The notes under the pieces: generated by a model
The model's database searches: none
What the model was told of the DNA's origin: nothing
The model's input: the letters and a program-made list of their open reading frames with translations, nothing else
Assembly: GCF_036860695.1 (NCBI RefSeq)
Contig: NZ_JAYKGJ010000003.1
Span: 62,001 to 126,000, forward strand
Source: Rosettibacter firmus
GTDB lineage: Bacteria > Bacteroidota > Ignavibacteria > Ignavibacteriales > Melioribacteraceae
Length of the DNA stretch: 64,000 bases
Direction of reading: 5' to 3'
Position numbers and translations under genes: made by a program
In this document: piece after piece, positions 40,434 through 46,619 of the stretch
Layout of the letters: each line of letters begins with the position of its first letter
How positions within the stretch are numbered: position 1 is the first letter of the stretch

Positions 40434-40444
40434 ATAATTAAAAA

Positions 40445-40540
40445 AGCCAAGCCTCCAGACCACCCAGGTTAAATACTTACCGTTGCTTCCTTCCGGACCT
40501 GGCGGGGTTGGGTATTAACCTGCCGATCTAAGGCCTGGCT
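40445..40540 (-). ncRNA. ffs: Signal recognition particle RNA, small bacterial 4.5S type
   Basis: The minus strand forms one long hairpin: outer arms AGCCAGGCC/GGCTTGGCT (about 9 bp, one mismatch), then CAGGTTAATACCC paired to GGTATTTAACCTG, with the universal apical domain CAGGTCCGGAAGGAAGCA and CAACGG. This is diagnostic of 4.5S SRP RNA, about 96 nt. The helix runs directly into a T-tract (TTTTTT) at 40440-40445, an intrinsic terminator. It is convergent with uvrC. Confidence 0.95.
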
Positions 40541-40661: not shown

Positions 40662-41915
40662 TCAGGTTTTTTGCTCTTTCTTTTTTGCGGCGGGAAAAAG
40701 AATATTATTAAGAATTAATCTATAACCTGGCGAGTTTTTAAATAAACTCAAATCTGTTGGTGGATCGCCAACTGCATGTTGATAATCTTCGGGATCGTGG
40801 CCACCATAAAATGTAAAAGTACCTCTTCCAAAATTTCCATGAATATATTTCACTTGATCAGTTCCTGCTCGTTCTGCAAGAATATAGACAGAACTTTTTA
40901 TATATTTTTTTCTAAACATTGTAGTTTGTCCCATAAAACCATGAATAACATTAACATGATTTTGTGTAAGCATAGTAGGAACTGGATCATACTTTGCTGA
41001 AAATTCAAAGAGCGTAAAATAATCATTCTGTTCACTACCAATTTCAGCAGGTTGAATATCTATATCGCTGTATTCATATATCAAAGGATTCATTTCAAGT
41101 TTGAAATCCTGAAAAGCTAATGTTTGAGAATAATCAAGTTTATTTTGTGCATCCGGGTCTGGTGGATCACCATCATACATTTTATCAACTATGTCTACAT
41201 TCAATGCGGCAAGAGCAATATCATAAGAATCAGTTGCAGAACACATAGCAAATAAAAATCCTCCCTGAGCAACATAATTTTTTATAGCTAATACTACAGT
41301 TTTTTCCATTTCAGATACTTTTTTGAATCCAAGTTTTTTAGCTTCTCTTTCATAAATATTCTGCTGTTCAATATACCATGGGGCATTACTGAATGAAGCA
41401 TAAAACTTTCCATATTGCCCTGTAAAATCTTCGTGATGAAGATGTAACCAATCATATTTTTCAAGGTCACCTCTCAAAATTTCTTCGACCCATATTTTAT
41501 CATACTGCACTTCAGCATAATCAAGTGCTAATGTTACTGCATCATCCCAAGGTTTAAAGTTAGGTGGAACATAAACAGCAATTTTAGGAGCCTTTTCGAG
41601 TCGTACTACTTCCATGTTCTGTTCTTCACTTTGAACAAGCGAATAAATTTGTACTGCTTCTTGCTGAGTTAATGTTTGAAATGCAACTCCTTTAATTCTA
41701 CATTTTGCTGCTAATTTTTCTGAATAATCAAACATAAATGAACCACCACGATAATTTAAGAGCCAATCACCAACCATTCCATCTTTTAGAGCATTGTATG
41801 CAATCCCATAAGCTTTGAGATGATCAGTTTGATTCAAATCCATGTAGATAAGAATTTTTGCTTGTGCAAGTATTAAGGAAGCAAAAAGAAAATTTATTAG
41901 AAATAATTTTTTCAT
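40662..41915 (-). CDS. Secreted orphan of the family mislabelled 'asparagine synthetase B'
   Basis: The 417 residues begin with a signal peptide (about 1-17, LINFLFASLILAQA) and are recognisable from the Bacteroidota/Ignavibacteria family found in databases as 'asparagine synthetase B'. Conserved blocks seen are DLNQTDHLKAYGIAY, DWLLNYRGGSF, WLHLHHEDFTGQYGKF, FLFAMCSATDSYDIALAAL, ENPLIYEYSDID-type text, TFYGGHDPEDYQH and the tail NSPGYRLILNNILFPAAKK. It has neither the ATP-pyrophosphatase motif SGGxDS nor an N-terminal catalytic Cys2, so asparagine synthesis is not supported. The GGHDPEDY and MCSATDS segments recall class-I glutaminase-like folds. True role unknown. Confidence 0.8.
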   Translation of the reverse strand: MKKLFLINFLFASLILAQAKILIYMDLNQTDHLKAYGIAYNALKDGMVGDWLLNYRGGSFMFDYSEKLAAKCRIKGVAFQTLTQQEAVQIYSLVQSEEQNMEVVRLEKAPKIAVYVPPNFKPWDDAVTLALDYAEVQYDKIWVEEILRGDLEKYDWLHLHHEDFTGQYGKFYASFSNAPWYIEQQNIYEREAKKLGFKKVSEMEKTVVLAIKNYVAQGGFLFAMCSATDSYDIALAALNVDIVDKMYDGDPPDPDAQNKLDYSQTLAFQDFKLEMNPLIYEYSDIDIQPAEIGSEQNDYFTLFEFSAKYDPVPTMLTQNHVNVIHGFMGQTTMFRKKYIKSSVYILAERAGTDQVKYIHGNFGRGTFTFYGGHDPEDYQHAVGDPPTDLSLFKNSPGYRLILNNILFPAAKKKEQKT

Positions 41916-42038: not shown

Positions 42039-43298
42039 TCAAGCTATCTTTCTATCGGATTCGATATAAATTGGTTTCTCTCCTTTTACTACTACGTCAC
42101 GAGTTATCAAGCATTTGTCAACATTTTCCATAGTTGGAATTTCATACATAATATCGAGAAGAATACCTTCAACAATTGATCGAAGGGCACGCGCACCGGT
42201 TTTTCTTTCAATTGCTTTTTTAACTATTTCATCTAAAGCCAATGGATCAAATTCTAATTCAACTCCTTCGAGCGCAAATAATTTTTTATATTGTTTAATA
42301 ATTGCATTTTTTGGTTCTGTTAAAATATTTCTTAATGCTTCTGGACTGAGAGAATGTAATGGTGCAATAACTGGTAATCTACCCACAAGTTCTGGAATCA
42401 ATCCAAATTTAATTAAATCTTCTGGTTGAACTTTTTGAACAAGATTATCTTTATCGAGGTCTTCATTATCAGATACATCTGTAATAAAGCCAACAGGATT
42501 TCTATTTATTCTCGATGCAATTATATTTTCTATGCCTTCAAATGCACCACCACAGATGAATAAAATATTTTTTGTATTTACATTAATTAGACTTTGCTCC
42601 GGATGTTTTCTTCCTCCGCGTGGTGGAACTCCAGCAATTGTTCCTTCAAGAATTTTCAATAATGCTTGTTGAACACCTTCACCTGATACATCTCTTGTTA
42701 TTGAAACACTTTCACTTTTACGGGCAATTTTATCTATTTCATCAATGTACACAATTCCTTTTTGAGCTTTTTCTAAATTATAATCTGCTGCTTGGAGTAA
42801 TCGAACCAAAACAGTTTCAACATCATCACCCACATAACCAGCTTCTGTTAAAGTAGTGGCATCTGCAATAGCAAATGGAACATCAAGAATTCTTGCCAGC
42901 GTTTGTGCAAGTAATGTTTTTCCTACTCCTGTAGGACCAATTAAAAGAATATTACTTTTTTCAATTTCAACATCATCTACATCAAAATAAGAAACCGGGG
43001 CATTTATTCTTTTATAATGATTATAAACAGCCACTGCAAGAATTTTTTTTGCAAGTTCCTGGCCTATTACATATTCATCAAGACTTTTCTTTATTAGTTC
43101 TGGAGTTAAAGAAAGATTAACGGTTTCTTTTTTCCCGAAAGAAGAAACATTATTTTTAAGAATTTCTACACTGGTCTTTATGCATATGTCACAAATATAG
43201 GCGTCGGGTCCAGCAACCATACTGGATACTTCACTTCCGTCTCGCCCACAAAAGGAACATCTAATTGTTTTTGGTTCTCTATGTCCACCCATTTTCAA
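42039..43298 (-). CDS. clpX: ClpX, ATP-dependent unfoldase of ClpXP
   Basis: ClpX unfolds tagged proteins for ClpP. The 419 residues have the N-terminal C4 zinc domain ([11 protein letters not shown] and YICDICI), Walker [13 protein letters not shown] (about 120), Walker [14 protein letters not shown], the GYVGDDVE pore loop, the RKHPEQ sensor region and the IGF-like loop near GFITDVSD. All are intact. No clpP is adjacent; upstream is a TPR protein gene with a 4-bp overlap. Confidence 0.97.
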
Positions 43299-45148
43299 CC
43301 ATTATTTGTTTGTAATTCGTTTAAATATTCTCTTACTTGTTCAAAATATAATGAATTTGGGAATTTCTCAAGAAGTTTCTGATAAATAGAGACTGCTTTT
43401 GTTTTATCTTTAATTCCAAAATGATAGATTTTCCCTAATAAAAAGAGTGATTTATCACTAAAAATTCCTGTTTTTGAACTTTCTGCTAATTCTTCAAGCA
43501 CTTCAATAGAAGTTGGTAAATCATTCATTGCTATTAAAGTTTCTGCCAGTTTATATTTTGCATATTCACTGATTAAACTGAAAGTTTGGGTATTTGATAA
43601 ATCTTTAAACTCTCTTGCAGCTTCTCTAAATTTTTTCTGATATAACATTAAATCTGCAGCTGCATATTTTATTAAATTCAAAGAGTCGCTTTTGGAAAAA
43701 TTTATTAATGATATAAGTTCCAGAGCATCGTTTGCAAAATCGTTAGAAAGAATTTTGGTTGTTTCTGAAAGATATTTAATTGCATCTGTAAAATTTCCAC
43801 TCCAGAAATTGATTTTTCCCAAATAATAATTTGCTTCTGATTGATGATTTAAATTACTTCGATTATTAATTAAAACTTTTTCGTAATACGACTTAGCATC
43901 TTCCAGTTGATTATTTAATATCGATATTTTCCCTTTCTGCAAAAATGCAAGAACTGAAAACTCGGTATTTGATGCTCTTAAATTTATTAATGTATACAAA
44001 CTTTCTGCTTTTTGATAATTACCCACACGATTAAAATAAATTTCTGCCATTCTAAATAATATTTGTGGAGTTAATGAATTCTCTGGATAATCCTTTATAA
44101 TTGACTCATAGGAGTTAATAACATCTCGTAATTTTTCTTCTTTAATTAAATTAAAATTGTTATAAGGTTTCCATAATTCATTTTCACTTTTAATAGTACT
44201 TTCAAAAAGCATTTCAAGTGATGATGCATAATAAAATCTCCACAAAGGTAATAACTGTTTATTATTACTATTTTTTATTAAATAATCGTAAGCTTTCAGA
44301 GCCACATCATATACTTTATTTTGATAAGCGTTATTTGCAAAAGATATAATTGTATTACCATTTCCATTAATTTTATTTTCATATTCTATTAATCTTTGAA
44401 ATGCATAATCATATTTACCAATCAATGAATAATAATAAGCTAACATATCATACAAAGCTGGTTTGGGATTATCCTTAATTTTATTTTCTATTGAAGTAAT
44501 AAATTGATTGATTGCATCTTTATTATCAGAATAAAAATTAATTCTTGCTTTAATGTTACTAATCTGCTCTGGATTTTTAATAATTAAATCACAGATTTCA
44601 TTTCCAGCATCTTTATATCTCATATTTGCAAGGTAAATATTTATAAGATCTATAGAAAACAATTCCTGATCATTAGAAATTTTTTTACCTCTTTGAAGAA
44701 TATCTATTGCTTTTTCAAAAGCTCTGCTCTCAATTGCATAATTAGCCATTACACGATACGCAATAATTAAATTGGGACTAACTCTCAAACCTCTTTCCCA
44801 CGCATCATAAGCTTTTGAAACATTATCTGCCATAAAGTAAACCGAACCAAGAAGACCAAAAAGATTGATATCCTGTGGTGTAAGCGAAATTCTTTTTTCA
44901 ATCAATTGAGTTGCTTCTGTATATTTTTTTTGTTTGATGAGAATTTTTGTATAAGCATCAAAGTATGTATAGTTTTCAGGGTAGCTATTCTGAAGTTCGC
45001 GCAATATGGCTTCAGCTTTATCAAGCTGTCCTGCTTCTTCGTAGCTCTGAGCTAATCTCAAACGATTATCAAGAAGATTATTTTGTGCAGTAATTGTAGA
45101 AGCAAGTAGAAATAATAAAGTGAGAATAAATATTTTATTTTTAGTCAA
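43295..45148 (-). CDS. Exported tetratricopeptide-repeat protein
   Basis: About 617 residues, almost entirely TPR units ([27 protein letters not shown] and similar; at least twelve) after a signal peptide ending ASTITAQ. I start at TTG 45148, which has GAGAA upstream and gives a proper signal peptide, overlapping the FAD-oxidase stop by 8 bp. The longer ATG at 45178 has no ribosome site and a poor leader (MWGTFFTR). The C-terminal half resembles YbgF/BamD-style TPR arrays. It is probably a periplasmic scaffold. It overlaps clpX by 4 bp. Confidence 0.78.
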
Positions 45149-46619
45149 AATAATTCTCGTAAAAAATGTTCCCCACATTTAAAATTTTATTCGGGTCGAA
45201 TATCAATTTGAGTTTTGCCATTTGTTTAATTACATCTTCACTATACATTTTTAAAAAATAATCTCGTTTAAGTTTTCCAATGCCATGTTCTGCTGATATT
45301 GTACCTTTTAATTCAACAGCACGTTCACATATTTTCATATAAATATTTTTAGAAATATTATACTCCTCTTCATTTTCTGGAAGCATATTTAAATGCATGT
45401 GAGAATTTCCAAAGTGACCATAGACTACATATTCCAATCCTCTATCTTCTACAATTTTTTTTGCTTCATAATAAAAATCTTTAAAAACATTGTCTGGAAC
45501 AGCAACATCAGTCCCAACTTTTTTTAATTTTCTTCTTGTAACATATTCGTTTACTTTCCATGCAATAGCATGTCGAAAATCTTTGAATTGTTCCTGTTCC
45601 TTTTTGTCTGCTGCGATCCAGGAATTTTCTTCCAATCCCGAATGTTTACTTATCAAGTCCATCCATTGAGAAATAATTTCATCTTCGTTGTCATCCAATT
45701 CTTGTTCAAACCAAACAGCAGCTTTAGCCTCTGCTGGAATGTTTGAATAATCATCCAATAAAAATTGGAGTGTATAATAATCAAAAAATTCAAGACCTCT
45801 TGCAGAAATCAAAGATAAATCGTTTGTAATTTTCTTTTTAGAAAGGTCACGAGCCTCTTCAATAAAATTAAGAGCATTTATTTCTTCATCAAAAAATATT
45901 ACACACGAAAGAATTTTTTCAGGCAATTCGATTATCTTTAATTTGATTTCAGAAAAAATACCCAGTGTTCCTTCGGAGCCAATGAAAAGATCAATTAAAT
46001 CCATATCTTTTTTACAGTAATATCCAGCAGCATTCTTTGTTTCTGGCATAAATATCTGAGGTAATTGAAATGAAATAATTTTACCACTTTCTGTTTTTAG
46101 ATTAGCATTATAGCCATCAGCTAAATATTCTCCTCTTTGCAAAGTTAATTTTTCTCCATCTGGTAGAACTATTTTTAAGCCCAAAACATAATCTCTTGTT
46201 GGTCCATATTTAAATGTTCGAGCACCAGATGAGTTTGTAGCCACATTAGCACCAACATGACAATTCCTTTCTGTTGGATCTGGTGGATAAAATAATTTTT
46301 GTTCTTCAAGATAATCCTGTAAATCTTTTAGTATAACACCTGGTTGAATTGTAACATATTTCTTTTCTTTATTTACCTCAAGTATTTTATTCATTCCTTC
46401 AAGTGATAAAACAATGCCACCTTCTGGAACTCTACCACCAGTTAATCCAGTTCCATTTCCAGAGATTGTAACTCTTTTACCTGTTTTATTACATTCTTTT
46501 ATGATATTAATAATTTCATTTTCATCTGAGGGGATATAGACTGCTTCACAATTGCCTGTATAATTGGAGGCATCTGATAAATAGTTTTGTATTTCGTCTT
46601 GATTGTTTTTTATTATCAT
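45141..46619 (-). CDS. FAD-binding oxidase of the GlcD/D-lactate dehydrogenase family
   Basis: A VAO-type flavoprotein oxidising a 2-hydroxy acid (glycolate or D-lactate type). The FAD-binding PCMH region has VTISGNGTGLTGGRVPEGGIVLSL (about 52-75) and GANVATNSSGARTFKYGPT, the substrate domain has YGHFGNSHMHLN (about 400), and the C-terminal signature is EHGIGKLKR. Start at ATG 46619 is preferred over TTG 46643 because the latter overlaps the Trm112-like gene and has no ribosome site. There is no adjacent GlcE/GlcF, so it is the single-subunit type. Substrate not determinable. Confidence 0.9.
   Translation of the reverse strand: MIIKNNQDEIQNYLSDASNYTGNCEAVYIPSDENEIINIIKECNKTGKRVTISGNGTGLTGGRVPEGGIVLSLEGMNKILEVNKEKKYVTIQPGVILKDLQDYLEEQKLFYPPDPTERNCHVGANVATNSSGARTFKYGPTRDYVLGLKIVLPDGEKLTLQRGEYLADGYNANLKTESGKIISFQLPQIFMPETKNAAGYYCKKDMDLIDLFIGSEGTLGIFSEIKLKIIELPEKILSCVIFFDEEINALNFIEEARDLSKKKITNDLSLISARGLEFFDYYTLQFLLDDYSNIPAEAKAAVWFEQELDDNEDEIISQWMDLISKHSGLEENSWIAADKKEQEQFKDFRHAIAWKVNEYVTRRKLKKVGTDVAVPDNVFKDFYYEAKKIVEDRGLEYVVYGHFGNSHMHLNMLPENEEEYNISKNIYMKICERAVELKGTISAEHGIGKLKRDYFLKMYSEDVIKQMAKLKLIFDPNKILNVGNIFYENYFD

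Follow-up and report, generated by a model that had tools for sequence, protein, structure and literature searches.

The minus-strand gene at 40662..41915 of a 64,000-nucleotide stretch of the Rosettibacter firmus genome (hereafter the window, meaning that whole stretch) raises a simple question: what does a highly conserved, apparently exported protein of 417 aa do when its family is reportedly labelled asparagine synthetase B? The question has a practical side, since a wrong enzyme name hides the family from searchers.

Coding frame, name and export

The open reading frame, which runs from an ATG start to a TAA stop, is real, and the motifs quoted for it in the first-pass annotation are all present in the product: HLHHEDFTGQYGKF at residues 158-171, MCSATDS at 224-230 and GGHDPEDY at 371-378. 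A search of the organism's own genome with the 417-aa protein returned a single match, the gene itself. Scans for promoters and terminators gave hits at chance level only.

Asparagine synthetase B is a class II amidotransferase with its Cys at position 2. The SGGxD[S/T] motif was found in 0/66 aligned homologues and the MCG-type start, which would supply an N-terminal Cys nucleophile, likewise in 0/66, a signal peptide standing in its place; nor did profiles detect an Asn_synthase or class II amidotransferase domain in Pfam or NCBIfam at E≤10, and an Asn_synthase match is present elsewhere in the same genome. The name is wrong because fold, motifs and export signal all differ, and the protein is not an asparagine synthetase. 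That it is nonetheless a true asparagine synthetase B, or the remnant of one, is scarcely credible: the reported label alone speaks for this, and apart from that label the protein differs from the enzyme in fold class, motifs and location. The earlier suspicion of a misleading name without SGGxDS was thus correct. So was the statement that Cys2 is missing, but this is no argument against an active site, because the fold is class I, with an internal elbow Cys-His-Glu, and not class II. A 605-aa predicted AsnB that appears in an excerpt of PMC6120980 was considered and set aside as a different protein from the 417-aa product.

Read by eye, the N-terminus consists of a short basic segment and a hydrophobic run followed by Ala-Gln, and the putative signal peptide covers approximately residues 1-18 (41862..41915, minus strand), as expected of the secreted protein that had been described. 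In 61 of the 72 homologues read (81 homologues, namely the window and the best 80 of at least 587 loci, minus 9 without the start motif), a Gln precedes the mature start motif by no more than 4 residues, in agreement with the Q-rule for Bacteroidetes signal peptidase I substrates as it is given in an excerpt of PMC10653852. The window protein shows no lipobox by eye, and the predicted fold takes in the conserved C-terminus, which is no extra sorting domain. With a type I-like signal peptide, no lipobox and a C-terminus that lies within the predicted fold, the simplest reading is that the mature protein would be soluble in the periplasm, and these features lend no support to the surface role proposed for it. 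One homologue, that of locus L066, could by eye be a lipoprotein.

Distribution and conservation of the family

The 417-aa protein had no match in Pfam, NCBIfam or PHROGs at E≤10. Against the PDB, the sequence gave a lone chance match (E 0.75) and the 66-row profile nothing at E≤10; when the 66 members were run against Pfam, the best E-value was 0.023 and no family was common to more than three members, hence we attribute these hits to chance. Neither a search of viral contigs, which gave no useful match, nor one of a plasmid collection, which gave none, added a relative. The literature searches found no paper on the family and no assay in print for the conserved function. The family is therefore absent from the family libraries searched, though its fold superfamily is known, and the description of the protein as one of no known function holds.

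Conservation is extensive. Among relatives, a homologue was found in 37 of 39 genomes (own genome included) and in all 33 that are near-complete; in a sample of the phylum, the gene is present in 275 of 395 genomes; and a scan of a contig collection gave at least 587 related stretches, the best 80 of which carry record titles from Ignavibacteria, Kapabacteria, KSB1, Calditrichota, Neomarinimicrobiota, Zixibacteria, Cloacimonadota, Gemmatimonadetes, Bacteroidales, Sphingobacteriales, Pedobacter and others. Set against 17 selected loci from other phyla, the 417-aa protein has a median identity of 61%; by the same comparison the figure is 52% for DUF4159 (10/17 matched) and 23% for the TPR neighbour (13/17 matched), both of which are taken up below. 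The high conservation claimed at the outset is plain from these figures. In the group to which the Gemmatimonadetes locus belongs, the gene is in 7/7 genomes, which may reflect how the set was drawn.

Phylum matches were at E 1e-140 or better in all but three genomes, and these weak matches have their own explanations: in G239 the gene runs into a contig end, in G170 a 100-residue remnant is left (the last 100 residues), and in G294 the gene is in broken pieces. No divergent tail of the family was found, the profile giving nothing in 13 of 18 genomes searched again. The broken or remnant copies, at L155, L158, L159 (G294:C53) and L156 (G170:C13), could be due to sequencing error or decay; other members of the families of G294 and G170 have the gene whole. 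Short extra C-terminal copies were also seen, one of 36 residues at 100% (G003:C14:10884-10991) and one of 26 residues at 77% that lies some 0.9 kb away from the complete gene (G037:C1:1106379-1106456).

Predicted fold and candidate active site

The AlphaFold model of the full chain (mean pLDDT 91.4, pTM 0.90) places residues 108-412 (40680..41594, minus strand) in a class I glutamine amidotransferase/ThuA-like domain. Foldseek gave 34 PDB matches at E≤1e-3, and VIA-align superposed this part of the model on domains of that kind with Z 10.5-13.1 over 174-229 residues. The top score (Z 13.1 over 184 residues) belongs to a domain of a GH42 enzyme, and 297 of 1000 chains reach Z ≥8, among them ThuA-like 1t0b (12.3), the acylase 8i5a (12.3), homoserine succinyltransferase 7cbe (11.7), the Pdx2 glutaminase subunit of PLP synthase (2iss_D, 11.3) and an IFT52 domain (10.6). 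The N-terminal domain, residues 19-109 (41589..41861, minus strand), modelled alone over 91 residues with pLDDT 95.5, is predicted to be ferredoxin-like, strand-helix-strand-strand-helix-strand and then a helix and a strand, and it has 13 invariant positions, including Gln29 and His32 (62 rows). Its best structural match, UreE, is weak (Z 8.1, rmsd 2.2 over 65 residues), with designed ferredoxin folds next in line and no Foldseek match under 1e-3. For the combination of the two domains no full-length structural match was found.

In class I enzymes a strand, the Cys and a helix follow one another, and the last strand leads into the His/Glu pair and the C-terminal helix. The model has this order: strand 220-224 is followed directly by Cys225 (codon 41241..41243, minus strand) and helix 226-236, forming a predicted nucleophile elbow, and strand 365-370 is followed by His373-Asp-Pro-Glu376 (40788..40799, minus strand) and the C-terminal helix 396-409. 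Cys225 and His373 are each present in 128/128 loci and Glu376 in 127/128, a set in which some genes were fetched twice (e.g. L001, the window's own gene), and a GHxxE[D/A] motif is found in 66/66 aligned homologues. The candidate His and Glu occupy the class I topological place with HxxE spacing, the usual class I spacing being HxE. Just as constant, at 128/128 each, are His320, His380 and, within residues 158-171 (41403..41444, minus strand), which may form a pocket strand or a metal site, His158, His160, His161, Glu162 and Asp163. The periplasm is an unusual place for a free Cys nucleophile, which speaks against catalysis, as does a second Cys, Cys72, found in 55/66 rows. By its predicted fold and the Cys at its elbow, then, the protein is a member of the class I amidotransferase-like superfamily. 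Structure prediction and fold search thereby bear out the glutaminase-like fold that had been guessed, and invariant His, Asp and Cys residues do lie in the quoted motifs. The motif reasoning behind that guess survives in part: MCSATDS and GGHDPEDY do fall at class I catalytic positions, but the fold they belong to is class I and not the class II fold of the Cys2 enzymes.

Two known groups are close enough for comparison. ThuA (PF06283) has the same fold (Z 11.6 for 4jqs and 10.6 for 4e5v, in addition to 1t0b), the Gly-rich strand ahead of the elbow and a C-terminal GHxxE-like motif; however, six aligned ThuA proteins of relatives have no Cys at the elbow, and the 417-aa protein differs further by its additional N-terminal domain and an HxHHED strand. 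The ThuA Pfam profile did not match the protein, nor is ThuA one of the 18 families hit at E≤1 by any of the 66 members, and profile comparison with ThuA or DUF4159 gave short motif matches only. Class I amidotransferases (Pdx2, 2iss/2nv0; aminodeoxychorismate/anthranilate synthase domains, 8hx9/1i1q) share the fold, the elbow Cys and a His and Glu before the last helix, whereas the 417-aa protein is apparently exported, has no sequence family match, and has HxxE spacing and an N-terminal domain of its own. A literature search combining ThuA, glutamine amidotransferase and crystal structure found nothing.

Gene order

On the minus strand of the window, the order is a gene for a GlcD-like FAD oxidase (scoring below its family's cut-off), a TPR gene (43295..45178; Pfam TPR, with a signal-peptide-like start), clpX (42039..43298; NF003745, 632 bits) and the gene of interest. 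The TPR gene shares 4 bases with clpX. In a set of 81 loci (the window and the best 80 of at least 587), clpX separates the TPR gene from the target in the window and in 17 others, all within L041-L064, the most similar. The unfoldase encoded by clpX is cytosolic; we do not count clpX among the members of the module proposed below.

The TPR gene is a more regular companion. A member of its family occurs in 45 of the 81 loci, on the same strand every time, and it is the same-strand upstream neighbour in 43 of the 73 loci for which 2 kb or more of upstream sequence is present; for 26 of 46 TPR entries, the TPR gene ends 0-324 bases ahead of the match. These counts come from a greedy ORF caller that found the target gene in 77 of 81 loci and lost it in 4, and that may hide TPR genes beneath antisense ORFs in L085 and L112. 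Moreover, in 12 of the best 80 of at least 587 loci, DUF4159, DUF4175, the TPR gene and the target follow one another on one strand (representatives identified by Pfam); by title these 12 are KSB1, Neomarinimicrobiota or Marinimicrobia, FCB group, or just "bacterium". Where the upstream sequence extends to 6.3 kb or more (57 loci), DUF4175 is found upstream in 14 and DUF4159 in 13. In the R. firmus genome itself and in most of the Bacteroidota loci that were read, the genes of the module do not lie together, the TPR gene alone being nearby in the former. Since DUF4159 and a 1118-aa DUF4175 protein are encoded side by side on a different contig of the R. firmus genome (L123, 9282-13301), with 12 bases between the genes, the cluster appears either to have come apart in this lineage or to have arisen elsewhere.

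The other side of the gene is more varied. A UPF0047 gene lies downstream of the target at nine loci (L078, L091, L094, L100, L102, L104, L107, L108 and L110), and in other relatives a gene of the fumarylacetoacetate hydrolase family does. In the window, the bacterial small SRP RNA (RF00169, 64.9 bits; 40442-40540, minus strand) lies between a uvrC-like gene and the target, an ordinary finding.

Co-occurrence with DUF4175 and DUF4159

Co-occurrence was scored in a single draw of 395 phylum genomes. DUF4175, searched for with the organism's own protein as query, is in 275 of them, and these are exactly the 275 genomes that have the target, with equal tallies for near-complete genomes and for genera; the genome counts are not independent events, the genomes being related, and the 120 absences therefore represent far fewer events. 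DUF4159 is in 280 genomes, 273 of them in common with the target; 2 genomes have the target only and 7 have DUF4159 only, two of the latter being marginal. It was also found in 8/8 genomes to which named loci from other groups led, by title Gemmatimonadetes, Zixibacteria (twice), Neomarinimicrobiota, KSB1, Cloacimonadota, Calditrichaeota and Kapabacteria. The identical genome set with DUF4175 and the near-identical one with DUF4159 are new here; the first-pass annotation did not mention these partners. The exact match with DUF4175 turns a "conserved hypothetical" into a testable gene pair.

Five genomes (G110, G181, G221, G277 and G295) have DUF4159 and are missing both the target and DUF4175. 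A weaker DUF4159 subfamily in the genomes with DUF4159 alone was considered and not borne out: five of their matches are among the lower-scoring ones, at E 8.6e-57 to 3.9e-52, but those of the gene-bearing genomes G060, G146 and G157 are alike. The DUF4159 protein (PF13709; related by sequence to the solved 4i66) is, like the target, exported by eye, and the two share a short local similarity around the elbow strand. It differs in having Asp-Asp-Asn or Asp-Asp-Asp in place of the Cys (17 aligned sequences) and in having no such N-terminal domain. The literature search found no paper on DUF4159.

Proposed function and its alternatives

A protein that is conserved, about 61% identical across phyla, and equipped with a candidate active site, all without a library family match, marks a conserved envelope function. 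The 417-aa protein probably belongs to an unstudied cell-envelope machine, and it is likely to be the catalytic periplasmic subunit of this uncharacterised module. The partners would be the large DUF4175 protein, which by the look of its N-terminus is a membrane protein, the second exported protein, DUF4159, and the TPR protein as scaffold. Building on the sequence and its conservation, the predicted folds, gene order and co-occurrence, we infer a periplasmic location, a physical complex with these partners and a catalytic activity. With its ferredoxin-like N-terminal domain joined to a class I amidotransferase/ThuA-like domain in which Cys225, His373 and Glu376 are retained, the protein would most likely be a cysteine hydrolase, or an acyl or amide transferase, acting on an envelope substrate: Cys225, activated by His373 and Glu376, would attack an amide or ester carbonyl in a pocket lined by the HLHHED strand. 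To this explanation as a whole, a two-domain periplasmic Cys hydrolase or transferase serving as a subunit of a DUF4175-DUF4159-TPR envelope module, we give a probability of roughly 0.45. The HxxE spacing, the second Cys, the missing elbow Cys in the ThuA relatives and the scattered module genes in most Bacteroidota loci read count against it, as do the genomes that have DUF4159 or the target but not both.

The same fold could instead serve the module without any chemistry, with the domain binding a ligand such as a glycan, a peptide or a lipid head group. The second Foldseek match is chain G of a levan utilisome (Z 12.2 over 214 residues), which we take to be a binding protein; the matched GH42 middle domain and IFT52 domain are of the same fold and are not known to be catalytic; and Trp, Tyr, Gln or Asn occupy many of the invariant positions. 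We nevertheless regard a binding subunit as doubtful, though worth keeping in mind, given that an invariant Cys225 and His373 and a near-invariant Glu376 at class I catalytic positions exceed what binding needs. Moreover, the ThuA relatives without an elbow Cys show that the fold tolerates change at this position. A metal-dependent enzyme or carrier, in which His158, His160, His161, Asp163, His320, His373 and His380 would bind the metal with Cys225 as a ligand, is more doubtful still. All of these residues are invariant, and UreE, a nickel protein, tops the structural list for the N-terminal domain; in an excerpt of PMC9478572, moreover, the ten transcripts that drop most in a Bizionia (Bacteroidetes) iron-regulator mutant include an "asparagine synthetase B", which falls together with iron-uptake genes. 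But the UreE match is weak and its fold a common one, designed proteins included, and the iron link may concern another gene, a true AsnB.

Beyond the preferred reading of a catalytic envelope subunit lies a broader one, in which the protein would form the catalytic centre of a hitherto undescribed envelope machine made up of four proteins in Bacteroidota and related phyla, performing a new kind of cysteine-dependent amide or acyl chemistry in the periplasm, possibly in cell division or in the envelope of type IX secretion. Taken in full, we consider this speculative and unlikely. The division link comes from AdvA of Acinetobacter baumannii, a DUF4175-domain protein that, according to an excerpt of PMC7481262, is essential and located at midcell, its depletion giving filaments; the literature search turned up no other paper on DUF4175. 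AdvA carries the domain of the partner, in a stretch before residue 203, and is from another lineage, and the excerpt reports no link between AdvA and the gene studied here, so that its role, if carried over to the large DUF4175 protein, would be a lead only.

The type IX link comes from the translocon protein SprA, scored as a control by its SprA_N domain: all 275 target genomes have it, as do 12 of 14 target-bearing genomes of other groups, with several of the 12 matches partial. In the remaining two (G413 and G416, completeness unstated) SprA was not found. A reading of the target as a component of type IX secretion only is weakened, not refuted, by these two genomes and by the broader distribution of SprA, which is in 303 of the 395 genomes; SprA is kept without the target or DUF4175 in 28 genomes of 7 families.
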